From: Clostridia bacterium
GTDB lineage: Bacteria; Bacillota; Clostridia; UBA1212
Length of the DNA stretch: 64,000 nucleotides
Reading direction: 5' to 3'
NCBI GenBank assembly: GCA_017461545.1
Contig: JAFTXP010000004.1
Span: 1 to 64,000, forward strand
Shown piece after piece: positions 4,088 to 57,976 of the stretch. The notes under the pieces were generated by a model that saw only the letters and a list, made by a program, of their open reading frames with translations, was not told the DNA's origin and ran no database searches. The translations under genes were made by a program, and so were the position numbers. Each line of letters opens with the position of its first letter. Position 1 is the stretch's first letter.

Positions 4088-6892
4088 ATGGATGACAAAA
4101 TTATTATAAAAGGTGCAAGAGAAAACAATTTAAAAAATATTGATTTGGAGATTCCGAGAGACAAGCTCGTTGTACTTACGGGCGTGTCCGGCTCGGGTAA
4201 GTCATCGCTTGCCTTTGACACGGTATATGCAGAAGGTCAGCGACGCTATATTGAGTCTTTGTCATCATACGCAAGACAGTTCCTCGGTCAGATGGAAAAG
4301 CCCGATATCGACAATATAAGCGGTCTTTCGCCCGCAATATCGATTGACCAGAAGACTACGTCCAAAAACCCGCGTTCTACGGTCGGTACTGTCACCGAGA
4401 TTTATGACTATTTGCGACTTCTCTATGCGAGAGTCGGTACACCGCATTGTCCTAAGTGCGGACTGGAGATTGCTTCGCAGACCGTTGACCAGATGATGGA
4501 TATTATCACGTCCATGCCGGAAGGTACAAAGATAAACCTTCTTGCACCTGTGATACGCGGCAGAAAGGGTGAGTATGTAAAACTTTTTGAAGAGCTTAAG
4601 AAGCAGGGTTATGTGCGTGCAAAGGTTGATGGAGAGGTTTATTATCTCGAAGATGAGATAAAGCTCGAAAAGAATAAAAAGCATACCATAGAAGTTGTTG
4701 TGGACAGGCTTATTGTCAGAGAAGGCATAGACAGACGCCTTTCCGACTCTCTTGAGACTGTTTTAAAGCTTGCGGATGGTTTGGCAGTTGTTGAGACAGA
4801 GAGCGGCGAAAGAACTCTTTTTAGCAGTAATTTTGCTTGTTCTGAGTGCGGTATAAGCATTCCCGAGGTTACTCCGAGAATGTTTTCGTTCAACAATCCT
4901 TACGGAGCGTGTCCTACATGTACAGGACTCGGTTTTCTTACAGCCTTTGATGAAAGACTCATATTTCCTGACGAGACAAAATCTTTAATGGAGGGTGTAA
5001 TTGCAGTAAGCGGTTTCAATGTTGCAAATGACGGTTATACAAGACAGATTATGCGCTCATTGGGAGACCATTTCGGTTTTGGAATAGATACACCTCTTTG
5101 CGAATTTACACCGGAGCAGAGAAATGTTCTTCTCTACGGAACAGGCGATGAAAGAATTCTGTTCCAATACGACGGCGGTGCATATACACACCGTTACAGC
5201 GGCGTTATGAATATAATTCAGCGCAGATACGGCGAGACAAATTCAGACATAATGAAGCAGTACTACGAAAATTTCCAGAGCAGTACACCGTGTCCCGATT
5301 GCAAAGGTAAAAGACTTCGCCCCGAGAGCCTTGCATTTAAAATAGGCGGAAAGAATATTATAGAAGTCACGGACATGTCCATAAATGTTGCCGATGATTT
5401 CTTGTCAAACATTGATTTTTCGACGCAGAAGCAGATGATTTCAGCGCCGATTATGAAAGAAATTCATGCGAGACTCGGATTTTTAAATTCGGTCGGACTT
5501 AAATATTTGTCGCTCTCGAGAGCAAGTGCGACTCTTTCGGGTGGCGAAGCACAGCGTATAAGACTTGCAACCCAGATAGGCTCCGGGCTTATGGGAGTTT
5601 TGTATATACTTGACGAGCCGAGTATCGGACTTCATCAGCGTGACAATGACAAACTTATTGCTACGCTGAAGCACTTGCGTGATCTCGGAAATACGGTTAT
5701 CGTCGTAGAACATGACGAAGACACTATGCGTGCGGCGGACTATATAATTGACATCGGACCGGGTGCCGGAATAAACGGCGGCATGGTCACTGCGGCAGGT
5801 ACTCCAGAAGAACTTATGGCAGATGAAAATTCTCTTACGGGAAAGTATATTTCGGGTAAGCTAAGCATCCCCGTGCCGTCAGAAAGACGTAAGGGCAACG
5901 GAAACTTTATAAAAGTTCTCGGTGCTGAGGAAAATAACCTCAAAAAGATTGATGTAGCGTTTCCTTTGGGTGTGATGACCTGCGTGACAGGCGTATCGGG
6001 TTCGGGAAAGAGCTCGCTTGTAAATCAGATTCTCTGTCAGGAGCTTCTGCACAGAGTAAACCGTGCAAAACTCGGGGGCGGAAAGTGCAAGGCGATTACC
6101 GGTTATGAGAATATTGACAAGGTCGTTGACATTGACCAGTCACCGATAGGCAGAACTCCGAGATCAAACCCGGCTACTTATGTTGGCGTGTTTGATATGA
6201 TACGCGATTTGTTTGCAATGACTCCCGAAAGCAAGGCAAGAGGCTATAAGAGCGGTCGTTTCAGTTTCAATGTAAAGGGCGGACGCTGCGAAGCCTGCAG
6301 CGGTGACGGCGTGCTTAAAATAGAGATGCATTTTCTGTCGGACATTTACGTTCCTTGCGAGGTTTGTAAAGGTCAGCGATATAACCGCGAGACACTTGCT
6401 GTAAAATACAAAGGCAAATCGATTGCAGACGTGCTCGATATGACGGTTTCGGAGGCCGTTGATTTCTTCTGTGACATTCCTAAGATAAGCAGAAAGATAA
6501 ACGCTTTAAATGATACGGGACTCGGATATATAAAACTCGGACAGTCTTCCACGACACTTTCGGGCGGCGAGGCGCAGCGAGTAAAGATTGCTACGGAGCT
6601 TTCACGAAGAAGTACGGGAAAGACTCTTTATATACTTGACGAGCCTACAACGGGCCTTCACACAGACGATGTAAAGAATCTTATTGAAATTTTAAGAAAA
6701 CTTACGGAAGGCGGTAATACCGTTATAGTGATAGAACATAATCTTGATGTAGTGAAATGTTCCGACTATATAATCGATATGGGACCCGAAGGCGGCGACG
6801 AAGGAGGCACGGTGGTAGTGACCGGTACACCGGAAGAAGTTGCAAAGTGCGAAAAGTCTTATACGGGACATTATTTGAAAAAACTGTTATAA
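4088..6892 (+). CDS. uvrA: UvrABC excinuclease subunit A
   Basis: 934 residues. UvrA is the dimeric ABC-type ATPase that finds bulky lesions and loads UvrB. Both ATPase modules are intact: Walker [10 protein letters not shown] near residues 32-40 and again near 636, signature motifs [14 protein letters not shown] near 482 and [14 protein letters not shown] near 823. Zinc-binding cysteines are present (CPKC near 120, CSEC...CPTC near 250-280, CEAC...CEVC near 733-760). The gene starts 57 nt after uvrB with AGGAAAGG ahead of the ATG, so the two are probably cotranscribed. Nothing is missing relative to the family. Confidence 0.97.
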
Positions 6893-6911
6893 AAGAATGG
6901 AGTTAAATTAA

Positions 6912-9269
6912 ATGGATTCATTAATGTGTTCAAAATGCGGTAAGCGTAAAGCATCGATATTTATTACGCAACTTGATCCGAGCGGAAATCAGGAAAACAA
7001 GGGATTGTGTCTTTTGTGTGCAAAGCAACTCGGTTTGCCGCAGATAGACAGTCTTGTTGAAAAAATGGGACTCACTGATGACGACCTTGAGCAGATTACA
7101 GAGGAAATGGATAATATGATGGAGGCACTCGGCGGGGAGGAAAGCATTATGGCAGAAGCAGTTGATGACGAAACCCACAACACGACAAATACTCCGAATC
7201 TTTTTGATTTCTTTAAAAAGTTAGGTCCGTCCGGAAATTCCTCACCCAAATCGGATTCTCCTGATAAGGACAATAAAAAGGCGGAGGGAAAGAAAAAAGA
7301 AAAGACAAAATCGAAGGATAACGATTCATTAAAAGCCCTCAATCAGTACGGTATAAATCTGAATAAAAAAGCCCGGGACGGTCTTATTGACAACGTAGTA
7401 GGAAGAGACAGGGAGATAGACAGGATTGCACAGATACTTAACAGACGCTCAAAGAATAATCCGTGTCTGATAGGAGAGCCGGGAGTAGGTAAAACGGCTA
7501 TTGCAGAGGGGCTTGCGATGAATATCGTAAAAGGAAATGTCCCTTACAAACTCAGTAATAAGCTTGTATATCTTCTCGACCTGACATCGGTTGTAGCCGG
7601 AACTCAGTTCAGAGGTCAGTTCGAAGCGAGGATGAAAGCTATAATTGACGAGGTCAAGCGTGCGGGAAATATAATTCTTGTCATCGATGAAGTTCACAAC
7701 ATCATGGGCGCCGGAGAGGCAGAAGGTTCGATGAACGCGGCCAATATTTTGAAGCCTGCACTTTCAAGGGGCGAAATTCAGGTAATCGGTGCTACTACAT
7801 TGAAAGAATACAGAAAGTATATTGAAAAAGACGGCGCACTCGAAAGAAGATTTCAGCCGGTAATGGTCGAAGAACCTACGATAGAAGAGACAGTAGAAAT
7901 TTTAAAGGGTATAAAAACTCATTACGAGACATTTCACAGGGTGAGAATATCCGACGCTGTGATAGAAGAAGCAGTCAGAATGTCGGAGAGGTATATAACG
8001 GACAGATTTTTGCCGGACAAAGCGATTGATGTTGTCGATGAAGCAGCCTCAAGAGCAAATTTAAGAAATGTCGTATTGGCAGAGCTCGAAGGTCTCCGCA
8101 AAGAGATTGCAGATATAAATGTAAAGGAAGAAGAAATTGCAGCACAGCAGATTCCGGAGGATGAGACGGAAGATGCAAGAAACGAGCGATTTAAGACGAT
8201 TGCCGAGCTTAAGAGCCGAAAGGCCGTTGCAGAGTCAAGAATAAAAGAACTCGAACCAAACGAATATGTAGACCTGATATTTGACGATATTGCAAGAGTT
8301 ATAGAAATCTGGACGGGAATTCCGGTGCAGACGGTAACCGAGCAAGAGGCGGAAAGACTCCTGAATCTTGAATCAAGACTCAAAGCAAAAGTTATAGGTC
8401 AGGATAAAGCAATCGAGGCGGTCTCCAAGGCTATAAGAAGAAACCGTTCAGGCTTCAGAAAGAGATTCAAACCGTCATCGTTCATATTTGTCGGTTCTAC
8501 GGGCGTAGGTAAAACGGAGCTTGTAAAACAGCTTACAATTGAAATGTTCGGAAATCTGGATGCGCTTGTAAGATTTGATATGTCTGAATTTATGGAGAAG
8601 CATACGGTGTCAAAACTTATCGGTTCGCCTCCGGGATATGTGGGTTATGACGAAGCAGGTCAGCTTACGGAAAAAGTAAGAAGACATCCTTATTCGGTTG
8701 TACTTTTTGACGAAATAGAGAAGGCTCATGCAGACGTATTTAATTTGCTCCTTCAGATATTGGATGACGGAAGACTGACCGACAGCCAGGGCAGGACGGT
8801 AAATTTCGAAAATACGATTATTGTAATGACATCGAATGCGGCGAATCCGGATAAAGGCGCAGATATCGGTTTCTTCGGTGCAAGTGACGCTGCAAACAGA
8901 GAGGCTGAGACGAATGCAGCGCTTAAAAAGATATTCAGACCTGAGTTTTTGAACAGAATTGATGAGATAGTGATGTTTAATACTCTTGATAAAGAATCAC
9001 TTATTAAGATTACAAGACTTATGGTAAATGAAGTTGCAATGCAGTGCCGTGACAGAGGTATAACACTTGAGGCTACCGACGAAGCTGTTGCCTATATATG
9101 CGAAAACGGATTTGACGAAAAATATGGTGCAAGACCTCTCAGAAGATTTATTCAGAAGAAGATAGAAGACGAACTTGCCGAGCTTTCGCTTCAGGGCAAA
9201 ATTTCTGCCGGAGATAAGGTTACGGTAAAAGTTTCGGAAAATGATACAGTAATAGAAATAAATGCGTAA
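6912..9269 (+). CDS. clpE: ClpE-type AAA+ unfoldase with N-terminal zinc finger
   Basis: 785 residues; Hsp100 ATPase that unfolds proteins for ClpP. The N-terminus has C6-x2-C9 and C33-x2-C36, the zinc-binding arrangement typical of ClpE rather than the ClpC N-domain repeats, followed by an acidic then lysine-rich low-complexity linker (about residues 55-130). Two AAA+ modules follow: Walker A GEPGVGKT near 186 with [10 protein letters not shown], and GSTGVGKT near 527 with [12 protein letters not shown] coiled middle domain lies between them. An IGF tripeptide (GADIGFFG), the ClpP-docking motif of such ATPases, is present. It starts 19 nt after uvrA, so it is likely in the uvr operon. No CtsR-type direct repeat was seen upstream. 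The ClpE assignment rests on the zinc finger. Confidence 0.85.
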
Positions 9270-10580: not shown

Positions 10581-12647
10581 ATGAGTATAGAAAATAAAGA
10601 GAAAAATCCTGAGTTCATAAAGGAAAGAGAACATGCTCTTGAAATACAGAAGATTATAAGCGATTCTATAAATATCGAAAAAAGTCTTCTCTCAGTCAGA
10701 CGCTCCGATATACTTGACGAAAGAAAGTATTTTATAGATTACTTTTACGAACTTCCTGATGATGAAAGACGCGATCTGTTAGAAAATGAATTTATTGACA
10801 TGAAAACATATGAGAGCACTTTGGTCAGATTTAAAAATCTGACTAAGCAGCTCCGTGAACCTTATTTTGCCCGTATAGATTTTACCGAAGATGACTTTGA
10901 ATCGGAATCGCTGTATATAGGCACAAATATGGTGCGTGACCCAAAGACAAATCTGATTGTTGTTTATGACTGGCGTGCTCCGATTTCAAACATGTACTAT
11001 GAATGTGAGCCGGGAAGGGCATCGTATATTGCACCGTCAGGAAAAATCGAGGGTGATTTGACCCTTAAAAGGAAATATGTTTTTCAAAAAGGTGCATTGG
11101 AAAAATATATAAATATAAATATGCCGTCAGACGATGAATTCCTTGCCGAAATATTGAGTCACAATGCAAGCAGCCATCTTAAGTCAATTGTAGAAACTTT
11201 GCAGACAGAGCAGAACAGAATAATAAGAGACTATCTTGACGGAATATCGGTAATACAGGGCTGTGCAGGAAGCGGAAAAAGTTCAATCGCGCTGCACAAA
11301 ATTGCATACATCATGTATACATTCAGAAATAAAATAAAAGATAAGGAGATAGTAATTCTGTCACCTAATACCTTGTTCTCCGATTATATTTCGACACTTT
11401 TGCCGGATCTGGGAGAGGAAAATGTTATTCAGACAGTCCAGGAGGATATCATTAATGATATCTTGTCGGATGTTCAGGTTGATTATTTCAACAGAAATCA
11501 GAGTATTGAATATGAGATGGCTTCACCTGATGACACCGTTCGTGAAGTATCAAAATTCAAAGCCGGTACTGAATTTTTACAGATAATAAAAGCATATGCG
11601 GAATATCTGCCGAAGATGATATTTAAGCCCGAGGTACTGTATCTTGACGCAGAATGTTATTCATCGGTATCAGCCGAAGAACTCGGCGAGCTGTTCTTTG
11701 AAAAATTTGATAAAGTTTGTCTTTTTGACAGACCTGAAAAAATAGCAAATTATTTGATAGAAAGCAGAAGACTTCGCACCGAAAATATAAAAGAGTTTTT
11801 AGTGGAAAATATGTTTGAGATGTTCAGATTCACGACACTGGAAACAATTTATAAAAATATTTTCTTTGACAAAGAGTTTTACTCGTACTTGGAAGAAAAG
11901 GGCGGTTTCGAAAGTGTTGTCGCAGGCAGAGAAGACCTGAGTCATCTTTCTGTAGTTCCGACTTTGTGGAGTGATGCCGTTTCTATGGCGTTGCTTGGAA
12001 TGATGCTGTCCGATTACGGAAGAGAAAAAAATGTATTTTACTTTATTGCCGATGAAGCTCAGGATTTAACTCCTGTATTTATAGAAATTCTTAAAATCAG
12101 ATACGGTTCCTCAAATATGCTTTTTGCCGGCGACAACGCACAGCTTGTATTTTCAAACACGGGCGACTATGTAAATGAGTTAAAAGCCGCAGCGGGATAT
12201 AAGCCCTTCAGAGTTTATAATCTCACATCAAATTACCGATCAACTACGGAGATTGCCGAGTTTGCAAAAGCAAAATGCGGAATGGGAAATATTGAGATAA
12301 GATGCGTAAGAAGCGGTGAAAAACCAGAAATCATTCCGTGCGGAAACGACGCGGCAGGTTCGGTAAATGATTATATAAAAGAATGTACATCAAAAGGTTA
12401 TGAAAGCATTGCGGTTTTGTGTCTGACACAGGCTGAGGCAGATTCTTTGAAGCCCGTTATTGAATATGACACGGAAAAAGTAAATGTAACAGTATTACCT
12501 GTATACATGGCAAAAGGTCTCGAATTTGACTGTGTTGCCGTGATGAACTGTAATAGCAGAATGGCGGAGTATGACAGCAAAAACGGCTCATGTGTACTTT
12601 ACACAGCGTGTACAAGAGCAATGCACAATTTGGCGGTGTTTGAATAA
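10581..12647 (+). CDS. helD: HelD-like superfamily 1 helicase (RNA polymerase recycling type)
   Basis: 688 residues from the ATG at 10581, which has AAAGG 11 nt upstream; a TTG at 10560 is also in frame. The N-terminus is charged and coiled, then YDWRAPISNMYYE, a signature of HelD proteins, precedes the UvrD/Rep-type ATPase. Walker A is GCAGSGKSS near residue 226 and the DExx box is ADEAQDLTP near 490. HelD proteins bind RNA polymerase and strip it from nucleic acid in an ATP-dependent cycle in Bacillus and mycobacteria; a plain DNA helicase role cannot be excluded. The stop codon overlaps the whiA start by one base. Confidence 0.85.
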   Translation: MSIENKEKNPEFIKEREHALEIQKIISDSINIEKSLLSVRRSDILDERKYFIDYFYELPDDERRDLLENEFIDMKTYESTLVRFKNLTKQLREPYFARIDFTEDDFESESLYIGTNMVRDPKTNLIVVYDWRAPISNMYYECEPGRASYIAPSGKIEGDLTLKRKYVFQKGALEKYININMPSDDEFLAEILSHNASSHLKSIVETLQTEQNRIIRDYLDGISVIQGCAGSGKSSIALHKIAYIMYTFRNKIKDKEIVILSPNTLFSDYISTLLPDLGEENVIQTVQEDIINDILSDVQVDYFNRNQSIEYEMASPDDTVREVSKFKAGTEFLQIIKAYAEYLPKMIFKPEVLYLDAECYSSVSAEELGELFFEKFDKVCLFDRPEKIANYLIESRRLRTENIKEFLVENMFEMFRFTTLETIYKNIFFDKEFYSYLEEKGGFESVVAGREDLSHLSVVPTLWSDAVSMALLGMMLSDYGREKNVFYFIADEAQDLTPVFIEILKIRYGSSNMLFAGDNAQLVFSNTGDYVNELKAAAGYKPFRVYNLTSNYRSTTEIAEFAKAKCGMGNIEIRCVRSGEKPEIIPCGNDAAGSVNDYIKECTSKGYESIAVLCLTQAEADSLKPVIEYDTEKVNVTVLPVYMAKGLEFDCVAVMNCNSRMAEYDSKNGSCVLYTACTRAMHNLAVFE

Positions 12648-13552
12648 TGTCTTATACGGATTCCGTAAGAGAACAGTTGTATAATGTCGAGATAAAAAAC
12701 AGATGCTGCATATTCGCAGAATATGCAGCAGTACGTTTATGCCTTTCGTCAAATAATGATGATTTCGGAAAGATTATTGTATCTTCGAAAAATCAGGATT
12801 ATATAAAACGTTTACAGTTCCTGTGTTATAAAACGCAGAATTTCAAACCGGAAATAGTGACATACCTGAAAAAATCTAAAAAGACAAAAGAAGAAAATAT
12901 GTATTATGAACTTGAATTGCCGCAATATAAAATAAAAAGCGAAGCCGGTGAAAACTTTGAAGCTTTTTCTCAAAAAGAATGTTGCGGTAAAGCGTTTATA
13001 AGAGGCCTATTTATGATGAGAGGTACCGTAACCGCACCTGAAGTAAGATCAGTCCATCTGGAGTCAGGTTTTAAGTCGGAAGAATTACGTGATGTGGCTG
13101 TTGAAATAATGCAATCTCACGGACTGAACGTAAAAAAAGGTACACGCAGGGATACGTTTACTTATTACATAAAAGATACAGATTCGGTTGCTGATTTTCT
13201 TTCACTTATAGGAGCTCCTAAAGCGAGATTTGATTTCGATAATGCAAAGGCGATGCGCGAAATAAACAATCAGAGTAACCGGGCAATAAATGCAGATGTA
13301 GCAAATTTCGACAAGGTTTCAATTTCAAGTTCAAAGCACCTTGCAGCAATCAGATTTTTATTTGAACATGATATGTATGATTCACTGCCACGTGAACTGA
13401 AAAGTGTTGCGGATATAAGGATGCAATATCCAGATGCAAGTCTTGCGGTATTGTGTGAAAAACATGTTCCGCAGCTTAGCAAAGCAGGATTAAATCACCG
13501 ATTGAAAAAAATAATACAGATTGCAGAAGATGCAGAAAAAAATTTGTTTTGA
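12647..13552 (+). CDS. whiA: DNA-binding protein WhiA
   Basis: 301 residues, close to the family's usual length. WhiA has a degenerate LAGLIDADG homing-endonuclease fold in the N-terminal half (KAFIRGLFMMRGTVTAPE) and a C-terminal helix-turn-helix (LAVLCEKHVPQLSKAGLNH), both visible. In actinobacteria it is a sporulation regulator; in Bacillus it affects cell division and chromosome segregation. The usual neighbours rapZ and yvcK are absent. It overlaps the helD stop (TAATG), so translation is probably coupled, and is followed at once by a terminator. Confidence 0.93.
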   Translation: MSYTDSVREQLYNVEIKNRCCIFAEYAAVRLCLSSNNDDFGKIIVSSKNQDYIKRLQFLCYKTQNFKPEIVTYLKKSKKTKEENMYYELELPQYKIKSEAGENFEAFSQKECCGKAFIRGLFMMRGTVTAPEVRSVHLESGFKSEELRDVAVEIMQSHGLNVKKGTRRDTFTYYIKDTDSVADFLSLIGAPKARFDFDNAKAMREINNQSNRAINADVANFDKVSISSSKHLAAIRFLFEHDMYDSLPRELKSVADIRMQYPDASLAVLCEKHVPQLSKAGLNHRLKKIIQIAEDAEKNLF

Positions 13553-40555: not shown

Positions 40556-40860
40556 TTAAATGCGTTGACCGAAAAGAAGTAGTATTATTGCAGCCTTTTC
40601 AGAGAACTGTCGGAAGGTGTGAGACAGCAGGATGAGTGGTACGAATACATTTCGAGAGTAGCAGTCTGAACAGCCTGTTATGGCTAAATAGGATGTGCCG
40701 GGGCAGGCCCGTTACAGCCCGTAGCATAGGATCGCATATCGGATGGTGTGCATTTTGTGCTGACAGAGGCTTATGCCGCAAGGCATCGGCAAATTGAGGT
40801 GGTACCGCGGATTTGATATTATTCGTCCTCAAGCTTTATATAAAGCTTGAGGACTTTTTA
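40556..40860 (+). promoter_or_regulatory. T-box leader, specifier UAC (tyrosine), with terminator
   Basis: The T-box itself is GAGGTGGTACCGCGG at 40796-40810. The intrinsic terminator has arms 40825-40838 and 40841-40854 followed by TTTTT. In stem I, CGAAA (40570-40574) pairs with TTTCG (40650-40654) and GTA (40582-40584) with TAC (40640-40642), leaving a specifier loop whose 3' strand is GAAUACA, so the specifier is UAC at 40646-40648, a tyrosine codon followed by the usual purine. The UGGU of the T-box fits an ACCA tRNA end, as in bacterial tRNA-Tyr with discriminator A. Uncharged tRNA-Tyr should allow read-through into the acyl-CoA synthetase gene. Confidence 0.9.
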
Positions 40861-44295: not shown

Positions 44296-45255
44296 ATGAG
44301 TAAAAAATTTTTTGTTGCAGATACTCATTGTGATACGTTAGGTTATGTAGATGAGGGCAGGTCAAATCTTATAAATACATATAATACAAGTAAACTTTAT
44401 CCTCATATTCAGGTGTATGCAATGTATTGTGCCTTGGAAGGGGAATCAGATGCCGATGCATACAGCAGGGCTTGCAGATATATTGAACATTATAAAAATT
44501 GTACCCGAAATGAAGGCATAGTAAGATGCACATCTGTAAGTGATATTGATAATGCAATTGATAATAACTCTAAATATATGTCGTTGCTTTCTATAGAAGG
44601 CTGTGAATGTTTAAACGGCAGTTTAGAAAATTTGTACAGGTTTTATGAAGCCGGTGTGAGAATTTTGTCTCCTGTTTGGAATAATAATAATGTTTTCGCA
44701 GCAGGCTGTCATTCTACCGGCACGGAGGAAGATTCAGGTCTGACTAAAAAAGGCGTACAGTTAGTAGAATTGTGTGAAAAACTCGGTATAATTATTGATA
44801 TATCACATTCGTCAGACAATACAGTAAAAGATATTATGAGTATGATAACACGACCGATTTGTGCAAGCCATTCAAATTTTCGTGAAATCTGTGATAATCC
44901 AAGAAATCTTACTTTGCAGCAATCTCTGAAAATCGCAGAGTTTGGAGGATATATAGGTCTTAACCTTTATTATAAATTTGTGCGTGATAATATTTCTGTT
45001 GACGAAACTTCTTATTATATTGATGAATTGCTGTCGCATGTCAAATACGCTAATGAAATCGGAATAGGAGACAATATAGGTTTTGGTTTTGATATAGACG
45101 GAGTTGGCGATATATATCCGAAAGACATTGATTTGAAAATCAGCATTCATGATATATTTATTGAAAAACTTATTTCTTTTGGGTTGGCTTACCGTTGGGT
45201 ACAGAATATAAGCGGAAAAAATTTTTTGGATTTTATTACACGATATGGTTTGTGA
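44296..45255 (+). CDS. membrane dipeptidase, peptidase family M19
   Basis: 319 residues from the ATG at 44296 (AGGAGG at 44276-44281 and AGGG closer). M19 enzymes are zinc hydrolases that cleave dipeptides, including those with D-residues. Metal-site motifs: VADTHCDTLG at the N-terminus, LLSIEGCECLNG, DISHSSDNTV and CASHSNFREIC, then GFGFDIDGVGD. No signal peptide is present, so it is probably cytoplasmic. A longer in-frame extension upstream runs into the preceding terminator and is not used. Confidence 0.9.
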   Translation: MSKKFFVADTHCDTLGYVDEGRSNLINTYNTSKLYPHIQVYAMYCALEGESDADAYSRACRYIEHYKNCTRNEGIVRCTSVSDIDNAIDNNSKYMSLLSIEGCECLNGSLENLYRFYEAGVRILSPVWNNNNVFAAGCHSTGTEEDSGLTKKGVQLVELCEKLGIIIDISHSSDNTVKDIMSMITRPICASHSNFREICDNPRNLTLQQSLKIAEFGGYIGLNLYYKFVRDNISVDETSYYIDELLSHVKYANEIGIGDNIGFGFDIDGVGDIYPKDIDLKISIHDIFIEKLISFGLAYRWVQNISGKNFLDFITRYGL

Positions 45256-45316: not shown

Positions 45317-45344
45317 TTGACAAAATTGATTACATGCGTATAAT
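45317..45344 (+). promoter_or_regulatory. consensus sigma-A promoter of the small-peptide gene
   Basis: TTGACA (45317-45322), a 16-nt spacer and TATAAT (45339-45344): both hexamers match the consensus exactly. It is among the strongest promoters in the window, yet serves a 35-codon gene only. Confidence 0.88.
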
Positions 45345-45419
45345 ATTTAATGTTTAGTAGGATTTTATCAGCTGAACATATATTGTGTTTGTTTCATGAG
45401 AAAGGGGTATGTTGGAAAT

Positions 45420-45527
45420 ATGATGTATTTTGATGAGCCTGAAGTAGATGTTCTTGTTTTCGAAAATGTTAGTGATATAGCAGACGAACTTAGTATTCCT
45501 GAGATTCCTGATCTCGGTGAGTGGTAA
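45420..45527 (+). CDS. 35-residue acidic peptide of unknown function
   Basis: ATG ATG at 45420, TAA at 45525. The peptide starts MMYFDEPEVDVLVF and ends IPDLGEW; it has eleven acidic residues and no lysine, arginine or histidine, no cysteine and no signal peptide. AAAGGGG lies 12 nt ahead; a five-codon ATG frame (45409) overlaps the start. It is a single-gene unit between a consensus promoter and a perfect terminator, which argues for real expression. The pattern of aromatic-xx-PE-xx-V-xx-F near the N-terminus recalls short clostridial hypothetical peptides. It could be a signalling or modified-peptide precursor, a small regulator, or a structured transcript with an incidental frame. Function unknown. 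Confidence 0.65.
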   Translation: MMYFDEPEVDVLVFENVSDIADELSIPEIPDLGEW

Positions 45528-45549
45528 GCATTATTTATTTGTATTTGTT

Positions 45550-45579
45550 AGCCATAGGTTTTTCCTATGGCTTTTTTTT
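45550..45579 (+). terminator. rho-independent terminator after the small-peptide gene
   Basis: AGCCATAGG (45550-45558), loop TTTTT, CCTATGGCT (45564-45572), then seven T. A perfect intrinsic terminator 22 nt after the peptide stop. Confidence 0.92.
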
Positions 45580-45699: not shown

Positions 45700-47610
45700 A
45701 TGAATGTAAAAATAAAATCTTTTGTTTTGATACCAATTGATATTGCAGTTATTGTTATTTGCTTTTTTGTGGCTGCTTTTATCCGCGCGTTCGACTTATT
45801 GGCTGAAATAAAGACTATTGCGCAGGCCCCCAGCGATGTATACAGGGTGATTCTCAGTCCCGCTTTTATAAGCATCATTGTAATATATGTCGTAGTTTTT
45901 ATTATATTTAATCTTTATTCTACTTTACTTAAACATATAACTCTGGAAGATGCTTTTCGTATTGTTGCAGCAAATCTTGTTGCCGCTATGGCTTCTGCCT
46001 TATACAATTTCTTCCTAGCAGAATTTTTAATCCCGGACGGAATAGGACTTACCAGAATACCTACAGGTATTGTTTTAATAGCAGCTATGCTCATAACTCT
46101 TGCTACTATTGTTATACGTTCAATCCCTCGTGCTGCTGAGTCTTTGAGAAGTTCATATCTTAATAAACATAGTAAAAAGACTGTTTCGAGAGTTCTTGTA
46201 TATGGGGCAGGAGAAGCAGGAGTTGCATTGCTCAGAGACTTGCAGAGAAATCCGAATCAGGGATACAGAATTGTTGGATTTTATGATGATAATGAGTCTA
46301 AAGCCGGGTCGAGCATTCATGGTCTCAGAATATATGGTCCGCACAACGGTGTAGACAAAACGGTGGATACTTTGCACGTGGATACTATTATAATTGCTGC
46401 TCCTTCTGCAACCGCTGAACAGTTTGCTAACATGCTGGAAAATTGCAAATCTACAGGTTGTAAGGTCAGACGTCTGCCGTCGCTTTATGATATGGTCATT
46501 GACGGAGATCTGAAACTCACTTCTGTCAGAGATGTTGATATAAATGATATATTGGGCAGAGAGGAGACTCAGCTCGATGTTGACAGTATCAGCGGTTATA
46601 TAAAAGATTCTGTTGTTTTGGTTACCGGAGCAGGCGGTTCTATAGGTTCGGAACTTTGCCGACAAATTATAAAATATCATCCCAAAAAACTTATACTTTT
46701 TGATATTTATGAAAATAATGTATATGACCTCGAAAACGAACTTTTCAGATTATACGGTAAATACATTCCGCTCAAAACTTACATAGGTTCTGTCAGAGAT
46801 TATAAGAGGATGACTGACATATTTGATTTGGAACAGCCTGAGGTTGTTTTCCATGCAGCTGCTCACAAGCATGTTCCTCTTATGGAATTCAGCCCGGGAG
46901 AAGCTGTTAAGAATAACATCTTCGGTACATACAATTCGGCAAGAGTTGCTCATGAGCATAAAGTTAACAGCTTTGTACTTATTTCTACTGACAAAGCTGT
47001 TAATCCTACAAATATCATGGGAGCAACAAAACGTGTTGCCGAAATTGTTATTCAGGCGTTCAGCAAAATAAGTGAGACACGTTTTGTTGCCGTAAGGTTT
47101 GGAAATGTATTGGGCAGCAACGGAAGTGTTGTTCCGCTTTTTAAAAAGCAGATTGCAGAAATGGGTCCTGTTACTGTAACACACCCGGATATCACCAGAT
47201 TTTTTATGACAATACCTGAGGCTGCACGTCTCGTTGTTCAGGCAGGCGCAATGGCAAATGGCGGAGAAATATTTATTCTTGATATGGGCAATCCTGTTAA
47301 GATTGCGGATTTAGCCCGTGATATGATAAGACTTTCAGGATATATTCCTGACGTGGACATAAAAATAGAATATACGGGACTTCGGCCCGGCGAAAAACTG
47401 TACGAAGAGTTGCTTCGTGCAGAAGAAGGTGTAGAAAATTCTTCTCATAACGGTATTTTTATTGCAAAACCGTTTTATATGGACTGGGAAGATGTTCAGC
47501 ATATGCTTTCTGATTTTGATGCATGTATAAATCAGGATCATAATGCTGTAGCTGAATGTATTAAAAAATATGTTCCTACATATCACAATGAAGTCGGCAG
47601 TCCTAAATAA
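45700..47610 (+). CDS. membrane nucleotide-sugar 4,6-dehydratase (PglF/CapD/WbpM type)
   Basis: 636 residues. Four N-terminal membrane helices (about 1-140), a first Rossmann domain (VLVYGAGEAGVALLRDL near 165), and a C-terminal short-chain dehydrogenase domain with VTGAGGSIGSELCRQI near 310 and STDKAVNPTNIMGATKR near 428. Methionine replacing the usual catalytic tyrosine is typical of this group. Such enzymes convert UDP-GlcNAc to the 4-keto-6-deoxy sugar, the first step to bacillosamine-like or fucosamine sugars in surface polymers. The LCP ligase gene follows 47 nt later, consistent with a role in wall glycopolymers. Confidence 0.92.
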   Translation: MNVKIKSFVLIPIDIAVIVICFFVAAFIRAFDLLAEIKTIAQAPSDVYRVILSPAFISIIVIYVVVFIIFNLYSTLLKHITLEDAFRIVAANLVAAMASALYNFFLAEFLIPDGIGLTRIPTGIVLIAAMLITLATIVIRSIPRAAESLRSSYLNKHSKKTVSRVLVYGAGEAGVALLRDLQRNPNQGYRIVGFYDDNESKAGSSIHGLRIYGPHNGVDKTVDTLHVDTIIIAAPSATAEQFANMLENCKSTGCKVRRLPSLYDMVIDGDLKLTSVRDVDINDILGREETQLDVDSISGYIKDSVVLVTGAGGSIGSELCRQIIKYHPKKLILFDIYENNVYDLENELFRLYGKYIPLKTYIGSVRDYKRMTDIFDLEQPEVVFHAAAHKHVPLMEFSPGEAVKNNIFGTYNSARVAHEHKVNSFVLISTDKAVNPTNIMGATKRVAEIVIQAFSKISETRFVAVRFGNVLGSNGSVVPLFKKQIAEMGPVTVTHPDITRFFMTIPEAARLVVQAGAMANGGEIFILDMGNPVKIADLARDMIRLSGYIPDVDIKIEYTGLRPGEKLYEELLRAEEGVENSSHNGIFIAKPFYMDWEDVQHMLSDFDACINQDHNAVAECIKKYVPTYHNEVGSPK

Positions 47611-47657: not shown

Positions 47658-48764
47658 ATGAAATTAAGACCGCCTGTGGTTGTTTTACTTATTATTTCTT
47701 TAGTTGTTTCTTTTATATGTGTTGTCTATTTTTGGATTGGCATACCTGTTTTAGAATTGATTTTTAATCCTGCTGACGATACAGGTTCGCATGGATTTAT
47801 TACTATTACAGGTTCTGACGTTTTGAATCTTGATGATTTGCACAGTGGTTTTGTGCCGGATGATTCATATCAAATGGAAGGTGAATATAAACCTGTAGGA
47901 GAAATCGGAAATGTAACATATGTCACGGGTAATCAGGTAAAGTTTGAAGAAGGTACTAAAAATATTCTCCTTCTAGGTATAAGTGATGAAGCGTTGTGTG
48001 ATTCTATATTTGTATTGAATGTAAACGAGGCGTCTAAAGAAGTAAAAATCGTTTCAATACCGCGAGATGCTTATGTCCCGTATACTGATGATATTGTTAA
48101 TGCAATGATAAAAGCCGGTTATTATTATTCTCCGGGGTCCTGTAAAATTAATGCTGCACTATACGTGGGTAGTTCAATTGTAAGATATAACGGAGGTAAG
48201 TTCGGAAATTCCGGAATAGATTTTTTGTGTGCGATTATTGATAATTTATTTGCATACGGATGTGAAATTGATGAATATGTACAAGTTGATTTGTATGGTT
48301 TTATGGACATCATTGATATAGTCGGCGGAGTTTATGTTACTTCAGACGAAGTGATGTATAAGACATATCCTGATGGTTCGAAAGAAGTATGGGTAACGGA
48401 AGGCACGCAGAAAATGGATGCCAAAACTGCTTTGTTTTATGTAAGAAACAGAACGAAATTTACATCGACAGGTGAAAATGCTTATGCCGGCGGAGATGAA
48501 TACCGTAAGACTAATCAAGTTAAGTTTCTTGCTGAAGTGTCTTCTCAAATATTGACAAAAGATAATCTGAAACTGTCCAATGTTACGGATTTGTTGCAGA
48601 CGTTAAAAGAAAACGTTAAGCACAGTTTTGGAGACAATTTGAGTGAATACATTGATATCGGTCTTGATTTTGCCAACGGAGGATACAAAATCGGAATGTA
48701 TGTTGTAACCGGTGAAGAGATTGATCCTATGGGAGACAATGCATCATATGTAAAAATCTATTAA
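47658..48764 (+). CDS. LytR-CpsA-Psr (LCP) family glycopolymer ligase
   Basis: 368 residues: one N-terminal membrane anchor (about 8-36) and an extracytoplasmic LCP domain. LCP proteins transfer undecaprenyl-linked teichoic acids or capsule onto peptidoglycan. The pyrophosphate-binding arginines are visible in VSIPRDAYVPY and in DEYRKTNQVKFL; NILLLGISDEALCDSIFV is the family start. GTGAGGG precedes the ATG. It probably forms a unit with the dehydratase upstream. Confidence 0.92.
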   Translation: MKLRPPVVVLLIISLVVSFICVVYFWIGIPVLELIFNPADDTGSHGFITITGSDVLNLDDLHSGFVPDDSYQMEGEYKPVGEIGNVTYVTGNQVKFEEGTKNILLLGISDEALCDSIFVLNVNEASKEVKIVSIPRDAYVPYTDDIVNAMIKAGYYYSPGSCKINAALYVGSSIVRYNGGKFGNSGIDFLCAIIDNLFAYGCEIDEYVQVDLYGFMDIIDIVGGVYVTSDEVMYKTYPDGSKEVWVTEGTQKMDAKTALFYVRNRTKFTSTGENAYAGGDEYRKTNQVKFLAEVSSQILTKDNLKLSNVTDLLQTLKENVKHSFGDNLSEYIDIGLDFANGGYKIGMYVVTGEEIDPMGDNASYVKIY

Positions 48765-57759: not shown

Positions 57760-57788
57760 TTGACAATATGTCAAAAAAATTATATAAT
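57760..57788 (+). promoter_or_regulatory. sigma-A promoter of rplJ-rplL
   Basis: TTGACA (57760-57765), a 17-nt spacer, TATAAT (57783-57788): consensus. The leader from about 57795 carries the L10 regulatory RNA. Confidence 0.9.
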
Positions 57789-57794
57789 AACTAA

Positions 57795-57906
57795 GTTGCC
57801 AAAGACAGCTGGCTTTGTTTTAAACAAGTAAGTCCCGCCGAGGTTGCGAAAAGAATCTTGTATTCAGATCCTTCGGTTACTATCTTTGGTTACCGAAGGA
57901 TTTTTT
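57795..57906 (+). ncRNA. ribosomal protein L10 leader with attenuator
   Basis: The leader contains the kink-turn-like pieces of the L10-binding motif: GCCAAAGACAGCTGG and, 20-odd bases later, CCCGCCGAGGT. It is followed by a terminator with arms 57868-57877 and 57892-57901 and five to six T. L10(L12)4 binding to such leaders represses rplJL when ribosomal protein is in excess; here the terminator suggests attenuation. Confidence 0.85.
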
Positions 57907-57976
57907 GTTATGGCAATGAAGCTATTGTAAAAAATCCTGTTTGCATAGCTAATCATTGAAGGGAGGTGTCACTAGG

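Follow-up and report, generated by a model that had tools for sequence, protein, structure and literature searches.

The closest described counterparts of the locus analyzed here are the linear polyphosphorylated peptides (LPP) of Paenibacillus alginolyticus, which are encoded by the LppA-K-B-S-D-N system and were reported in Nat Commun in 2026 (PMC13381572). In the Paenibacillus LPP system, YxxP is bound by LppB, Ser3 of the core receives one to four phosphates from LppK, and the SipW-like peptidase LppS, assisted by LppB, cleaves behind the leader (PMC13381572). Counted from the published numbering, the acceptor Ser of LppA lies 18 residues after the Tyr (PMC13381572). PqqD-like proteins act as recognition elements (RREs) for RiPPs, peptides made on the ribosome and then modified; several RREs bind [Y/W]xxP leaders, and LPP loci are frequently located in capsule loci (PMC13381572). 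In the literature that we searched, the enzyme set is described only in this paper, the text of which contains neither clostridia nor unlinked precursors.

We analyzed a stretch of 64,000 nucleotides from a clostridial genome (G000), referred to as the window, all features of which are given on the forward strand. A short transcription unit at 45317-45579 contains a gene that is probably the stand-alone, unlinked precursor of an LPP-like, presumably phosphorylated RiPP matured by enzymes encoded elsewhere in the genome. RiPP mining usually seeks precursors beside their enzymes, whereas the conserved leader pattern found here flags many that are far from any enzyme. If this reading is true, LPP-type chemistry, described in 2026 from Bacilli, extends to Clostridia of gut- and rumen-type lineages.

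A lone protein-coding gene under selection

The unit starts with a sigma-70/A-type promoter, TTGACA-N16-TATAAT (45317-45344), that matches the consensus at 12 of 12 positions. The original prediction placed it among the best promoters of the window, and it is indeed one of only two perfect matches in the 64 kb, where 0.11 are expected from shuffled sequences. A likely ribosome-binding site, AAAGGGG (45401-45407), was read directly from the sequence 12 nt 5' of the ATG. The gene, MMYFDEPEVDVLVFENVSDIADELSIPEIPDLGEW, occupies 45420-45527 including the stop codon (45525-45527), and a recount of its 35 residues gave the composition originally described: 11 Asp or Glu, no Lys, Arg or His, and no Cys. 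The unit closes with an intrinsic terminator (45550-45579; stem and U stretch at 45550-45572) with a 9-bp stem and 8 U. It had been called perfect; it is strong and conserved, but a terminator-like site by itself is no more than chance predicts (1.0 expected in 2 kb). Outside the unit, an M19 membrane dipeptidase gene lies upstream (44296-45255; PF01244, E 2e-58) and a CapD-like polysaccharide biosynthesis gene downstream (45700-47610; PF02719, E 2e-122), followed by a gene of the LytR-CpsA-Psr family (47658-48764; PF03816, E 4e-25).

The sole other genome of the genus that we compared, Oscillospiraceae MAG SIG423 (G001; SVJA01000008.1), has an orthologue, MLYFDEPDVEVVVFENTSDIADEYSIPEIPDDGVVIW, in a 37-aa frame with 77-79% identity to the window peptide. 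The dipeptidase and CapD-like genes flank it in the same order and serve as synteny anchors. The two promoter hexamers, the spacer of 16 nt and the bases of the terminator stem are retained, and GGAGGGG stands at the site equivalent to the putative ribosome-binding site. Because the promoter, frame and terminator are conserved in G001, their combination exceeds chance, and the lone 263-bp unit of the original prediction is confirmed as an observation. The orthologue alignment begins at the ATG at 45420; a longer start at 45396 (43 aa) was therefore rejected.

The original prediction had proposed to look for selection on the codons. Over 33 codons the two frames differ by 20 substitutions, 12 of them at third positions, that result in 7 residue changes. 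Seven or fewer changes occur in only 0.025% of random placements of the same substitutions (null P = 0.00025), and dS is 0.82 for a dN of 0.14, so that selection is purifying. The frame at 45420-45527 codes for a protein under selection and has a promoter and a terminator to itself. When genome contigs were scanned with the window pair, the G001 orthologue was the only match, and a tblastn search of plasmids and phages with the window peptide gave none; the subfamily of the window pair is present in these two genomes only.

Elsewhere in the window, a T-box leader (40556-40833) precedes an ORF resembling acyl-CoA synthetases, and the start of a ribosomal L10 leader (57781-57915) overlaps the other perfect promoter (57760). 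By eye, the window edge (1-783) contains the C-terminal end of an RHS-repeat-like protein.

A putative leader family and the associated enzyme cassette

The aromatic-xx-PE-xx-V-xx-F start of the peptide had been noted as a feature of other short clostridial peptides of unknown role, and a search for peptides with the same start had been proposed. A two-sequence profile run against 391 genomes gave mostly chance matches within long genes and one true relative, L009 (MKSYIEPKCEIMIFENVSVICASSFVYDKWGDN). This weak match led to the pattern MxxYxxPxxxIxxFxxxD[IV]. Used as a DNA pattern on 291 genomes of the class, it produced 20 matches, while the reversed control pattern produced 0. All but one of the matches are ORFs of 38-60 codons, the exception being a chance match in a longer gene. 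Profile searches extended the set to relatives across the order and to 42 of the 291 genomes of the class, with up to 26 copies per genome. The start pattern is real and widespread, and belongs to a family. The family consensus is M-x-x-[YF]-x-x-P-x-x-x-[IV]-x-x-F-x-x-E-D-[IV]-I-T-[AT]-S-G, after which comes a tail that varies and is usually acidic. The 53 distinct members in the retrieved loci include 30 with YxxP, 14 with FxxP and 47 with the terminal motif and its Ser.

In order to avoid circularity, membership was assessed with a profile from which the window pair had been left out. Against this profile the window peptide scored 16.3 bits. None of 5000 shuffles came that high (the best had 13.0), and among 508 short ORFs of the window the runner-up scored 6.1 bits, 10 bits lower; the match spans residues 1-17 only. 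Pfam and NCBIfam contain no match to the window peptide and, except for one sub-threshold chance match, none to its relatives. Judged by these alignments, the relatives form a large, previously unnamed family of putative leaders into which the N-terminal half of the window peptide fits, and their pattern is similar to that of leaders recognized by small RRE (PqqD-like) proteins. Dozens of scattered candidate precursor genes, unnamed in the libraries searched, are thereby recognized across gut- and rumen-type Clostridia.

In the window peptide, the family alignments and the profile place the leader motif F-x-x-P-x-x-x-V-x-x-F-x-x-x-S-D-I, the presumed RRE-binding stretch, at residues 4-20 (45429-45479). 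The anchors are F4xxP7, V11 and F14, with neither VLxHQ nor FET. The first anchor is ambiguous between Phe and Tyr, and Phe4 may take the place of the Tyr of YxxP. The terminal [TC]xS(G) motif is absent from the window pair, which reads SDIADELS in the window and SDIADEYS in G001 versus EDIITASG in relatives. The column that holds Ser in nearly all relatives is Glu in both.

With locally built profiles we located four genes: an HprK-like kinase (K), a discrete RRE/PqqD protein (B), an archaeal/SipW-type signal-peptidase homologue (S) and an NTP transferase (N). In G013 a family peptide lies 6 nt before the HprK-like kinase, and PqqD, a gene resembling signal peptidases and a nucleotidyltransferase come next. 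The succession peptide-K-B-S(-N) occurs in a row in G013, G245, G298, G114, G117, G120 and G043, with K and B swapped in G299 (peptide-B-K-S). PqqD is present in 39 of the 42 peptide-positive genomes among the 291 searched (Fisher 1e-10) and K in the same 39 (Fisher 4e-21); the three exceptions (G184, G262 and G281) are without both. For full-length K and the family peptide, the association is 3e-34 by genome and 1e-24 by genus (Fisher), where the genus count controls for relatedness only partly.

Most relatives follow a larger gene. In 41 of the 53 distinct members, an ORF of 100 aa or more on the same strand terminates -12 to 50 nt ahead of the peptide, and 32 of these ORFs either have a signal-peptide-like N-terminus (17, by a crude rule) or run off the end of the retrieved stretch. 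The window peptide is unlike most relatives in having its own promoter and no large preceding partner ORF. Throughout L083-L122 (e.g. L105 4084, L114 3916, L101 3991) the peptide mostly forms the final cistron behind a large protein that often bears a signal peptide, and several of these proteins end in a ..YGDSAAAYV-like sequence. Tandem copies were seen in L116/L157: G046 has two near-identical pairs of secreted protein and peptide, and in G006 three tandem family peptides precede K-B-S.

The original prediction stated that no maturation genes are adjacent. This is true of the locus, but a matching cassette is present on another contig of the same genome (C10), the precursor gene being on contig C22; no linkage was found in this genus. 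The cassette lies in L154 (G000:C10:24000-43999), and its coordinates are given within L154. K (6052-6768) has the Walker motif GVGKST and a weak match to PF07475 (E 0.0014); B (6794-7063) matches PF05402 above the cut-off (E 3e-9); S (7054-7545) carries the signatures GTSM(LP), (V)LHR(IV) and (C)GDH, corresponding to Ser, His and Asp, and matches TIGR02228 weakly, below the cut-off (E 7e-4). The K model (pLDDT 89.5) has HPr kinase as its best fold match (1e-6). The B model (pLDDT 89.7) is most similar to the lasso RRE-leader complexes TbiB1 (3e-5) and TfuB1 (9e-4), and a profile of B homologues run against the PDB finds TfuB1, PbaB1, TbiB1 and LppB, with the lasso RREs scoring above LppB. Housekeeping genes (RsgA, ribulose-phosphate epimerase; NFACT) flank the cassette, and no MsbA-like transporter was noticed in the ORF list around it. 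G001 carries the same K-B-S set. N (PF14907, NTP_transf_5) is present in both genomes, unlinked from K-B-S (G000:C11:17788-18465, L190; G001:C5:14895-15506, L191); the G001 gene is located near glycosyltransferase-like genes. G000 (69% complete) and G001 (95% complete) have one detectable family peptide each. With a single detectable family peptide and a K-B-S set per genome, the window peptide is the obvious substrate.

Proposed maturation and alternative readings

In the proposed mechanism, the RRE (B) would bind the [Y/F]xxP...V stretch as one more beta strand and thereby present the peptide. K would phosphorylate a Ser just after the leader, presumably Ser25 or Ser18, and S would cut the leader off. 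A short acidic C-terminal piece (about SIPEIPDLGEW) would be left, to be exported or decorated further. The near-invariant Ser of ITAS in the family lies 19 residues after the Tyr (about 18-19 after the aromatic anchor), compared with 18 in LppA, and this spacing makes it the likely phospho-acceptor of the clostridial family. Both candidates in the window peptide, Ser18 (45471-45473) and Ser25 (45492-45494), are conserved in G001. Ser25 is two residues off the family position and, by analogy with Ser3 of LppA, seems the more likely acceptor, with a core of about SIPEIPDLGEW; this is the weakest step of the scheme. The weak points of the LPP-like reading as a whole are the absent ITAS(G) end, the Glu at the Ser column, the ambiguous first anchor, a family match carried mainly by residues 1-17, the restriction of the subfamily to two genomes, the unlinked gene, the higher profile scores of lasso RREs than of LppB, and a second RRE set that is a possible reader.

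This second set (L154:12547-14226) encodes, one after another, PqqD (12547-12816), an S26/SipW-like peptidase and a radical SAM/SPASM protein; it might act as a second reader or belong to a RiPP system of its own. If it matured the same class of leader, the product would be a carbon- or thioether-crosslinked peptide. The S26-like/radical SAM pair is also found in the matching G001 stretch (L155 5567-6967), with PqqD likewise found in G001, and the displaced Ser of the window peptide would fit such a product. However, across the 291 genomes the family tracks the HprK-like kinase, and the linked loci adjoin K-B-S, not radical SAM genes. Furthermore, the window peptide has no Cys, although radical SAM links to other residues are possible. 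We regard maturation by this set as improbable.

It is similarly unlikely that the gene encodes a small, conserved protein that descends from a RiPP precursor and now acts, unmodified, as a regulator or partner, with Glu replacing the phosphorylated Ser. Such a protein would explain why ITAS(G) is lost in both species with Glu at the aligned column, and would agree with the strong promoter of its own and the lack of linkage to the cassette. Yet the two species share a conserved leader stretch and both Ser residues, and each genome retains the cassette, for which no second substrate was detected.

The short lone transcript with its strong promoter and terminator, and the better than shuffled folding of the 230-nt transcript (z -2.95), might suggest a regulatory RNA that carries a decoy frame. 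This is very improbable: most of the folding excess comes from the terminator (z -1.44 once it is removed), G001 does not retain the 5' hairpin, Rfam has no match at the locus, and the third-position bias and low dN/dS point to selection on codons. Among the options of the original prediction, a modified-peptide precursor is well supported, while an RNA with a decoy frame is disfavored.

Returning to the LPP-like precursor, we would guess that the peptide has a role at the cell surface, given its CapD-like and LytR-CpsA-Psr neighbors and relatives that trail often-secreted proteins. A more tentative idea, which we consider possible but rather doubtful, is a hub with spokes. Throughout the class Clostridia, one central K-RRE-S set per genome would mature many scattered precursors, mostly trailing cistrons of large, often secreted proteins, and every surface protein would be produced along with a phosphorylated peptide partner or tag of its own. 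The window would represent the minimal form, one set and one unlinked precursor. The LPP-like reading offers short acidic peptides of these Clostridia a testable maturation route and draws attention to how many of them follow genes of secreted proteins.

Comparison with known systems

SynChlorMet and HPr-rel-A systems (NCBIfam TIGR04248/04249 and TIGR04352/04353) share a PqqD-like protein and an HprK-related kinase with the present set at the level of weak profile similarity, but all scores are far below the curated cut-offs. Paeninodin-type and other lasso peptides (YxxP/WxxP leaders, B1 RRE) are closer: the leader is of the YxxP type, the RRE fold is nearest to TbiB1/TfuB1, and an HprK-like kinase and an NTP transferase are in common. 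In contrast to lasso precursors, the window peptide has no plausible ring-forming start of the core, and an S26-type peptidase stands in place of B2. Neither a lasso B2 peptidase nor an asparagine-synthetase-like macrolactam cyclase was identified around K-B-S by Pfam on part of the ORFs and by ORF reading. The lasso reading was dropped on this search around the cassette, and an AgrD-like reading for the lack of Cys.

The LPP system provides the best overall match. Similar to it, the window's genome encodes an HprK-like kinase, a discrete RRE and a SipW/archaeal-type signal-peptidase homologue, with the NTP transferase elsewhere, and the precursor is at least 35 aa long with a conserved N-terminus, a variable C-terminus and an aromatic-xxP RRE motif. 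The differences are also clear. The present set is clostridial, whereas LPP come from Bacilli; the window precursor lies outside the cassette, although other clostridial members are linked; relatives have up to 26 scattered precursors per genome; and no transporter was seen beside the clostridial K-B-S. The clostridial leader is [Y/F]xxPxxxIxxFxxEDIITAS versus YxxPxVLxHQxIxFETxxS in LPP, with the Ser displaced in the window peptide, and the clostridial RRE profile shows no preference for LppB over lasso RREs. The peptide would work like an LPP precursor. Because it has neither the LPP leader motif nor the in-cluster position, and its RRE is no closer to LppB, we nonetheless place it outside LPP proper and describe it as the unlinked precursor of a clostridial RiPP branch that resembles LPP.
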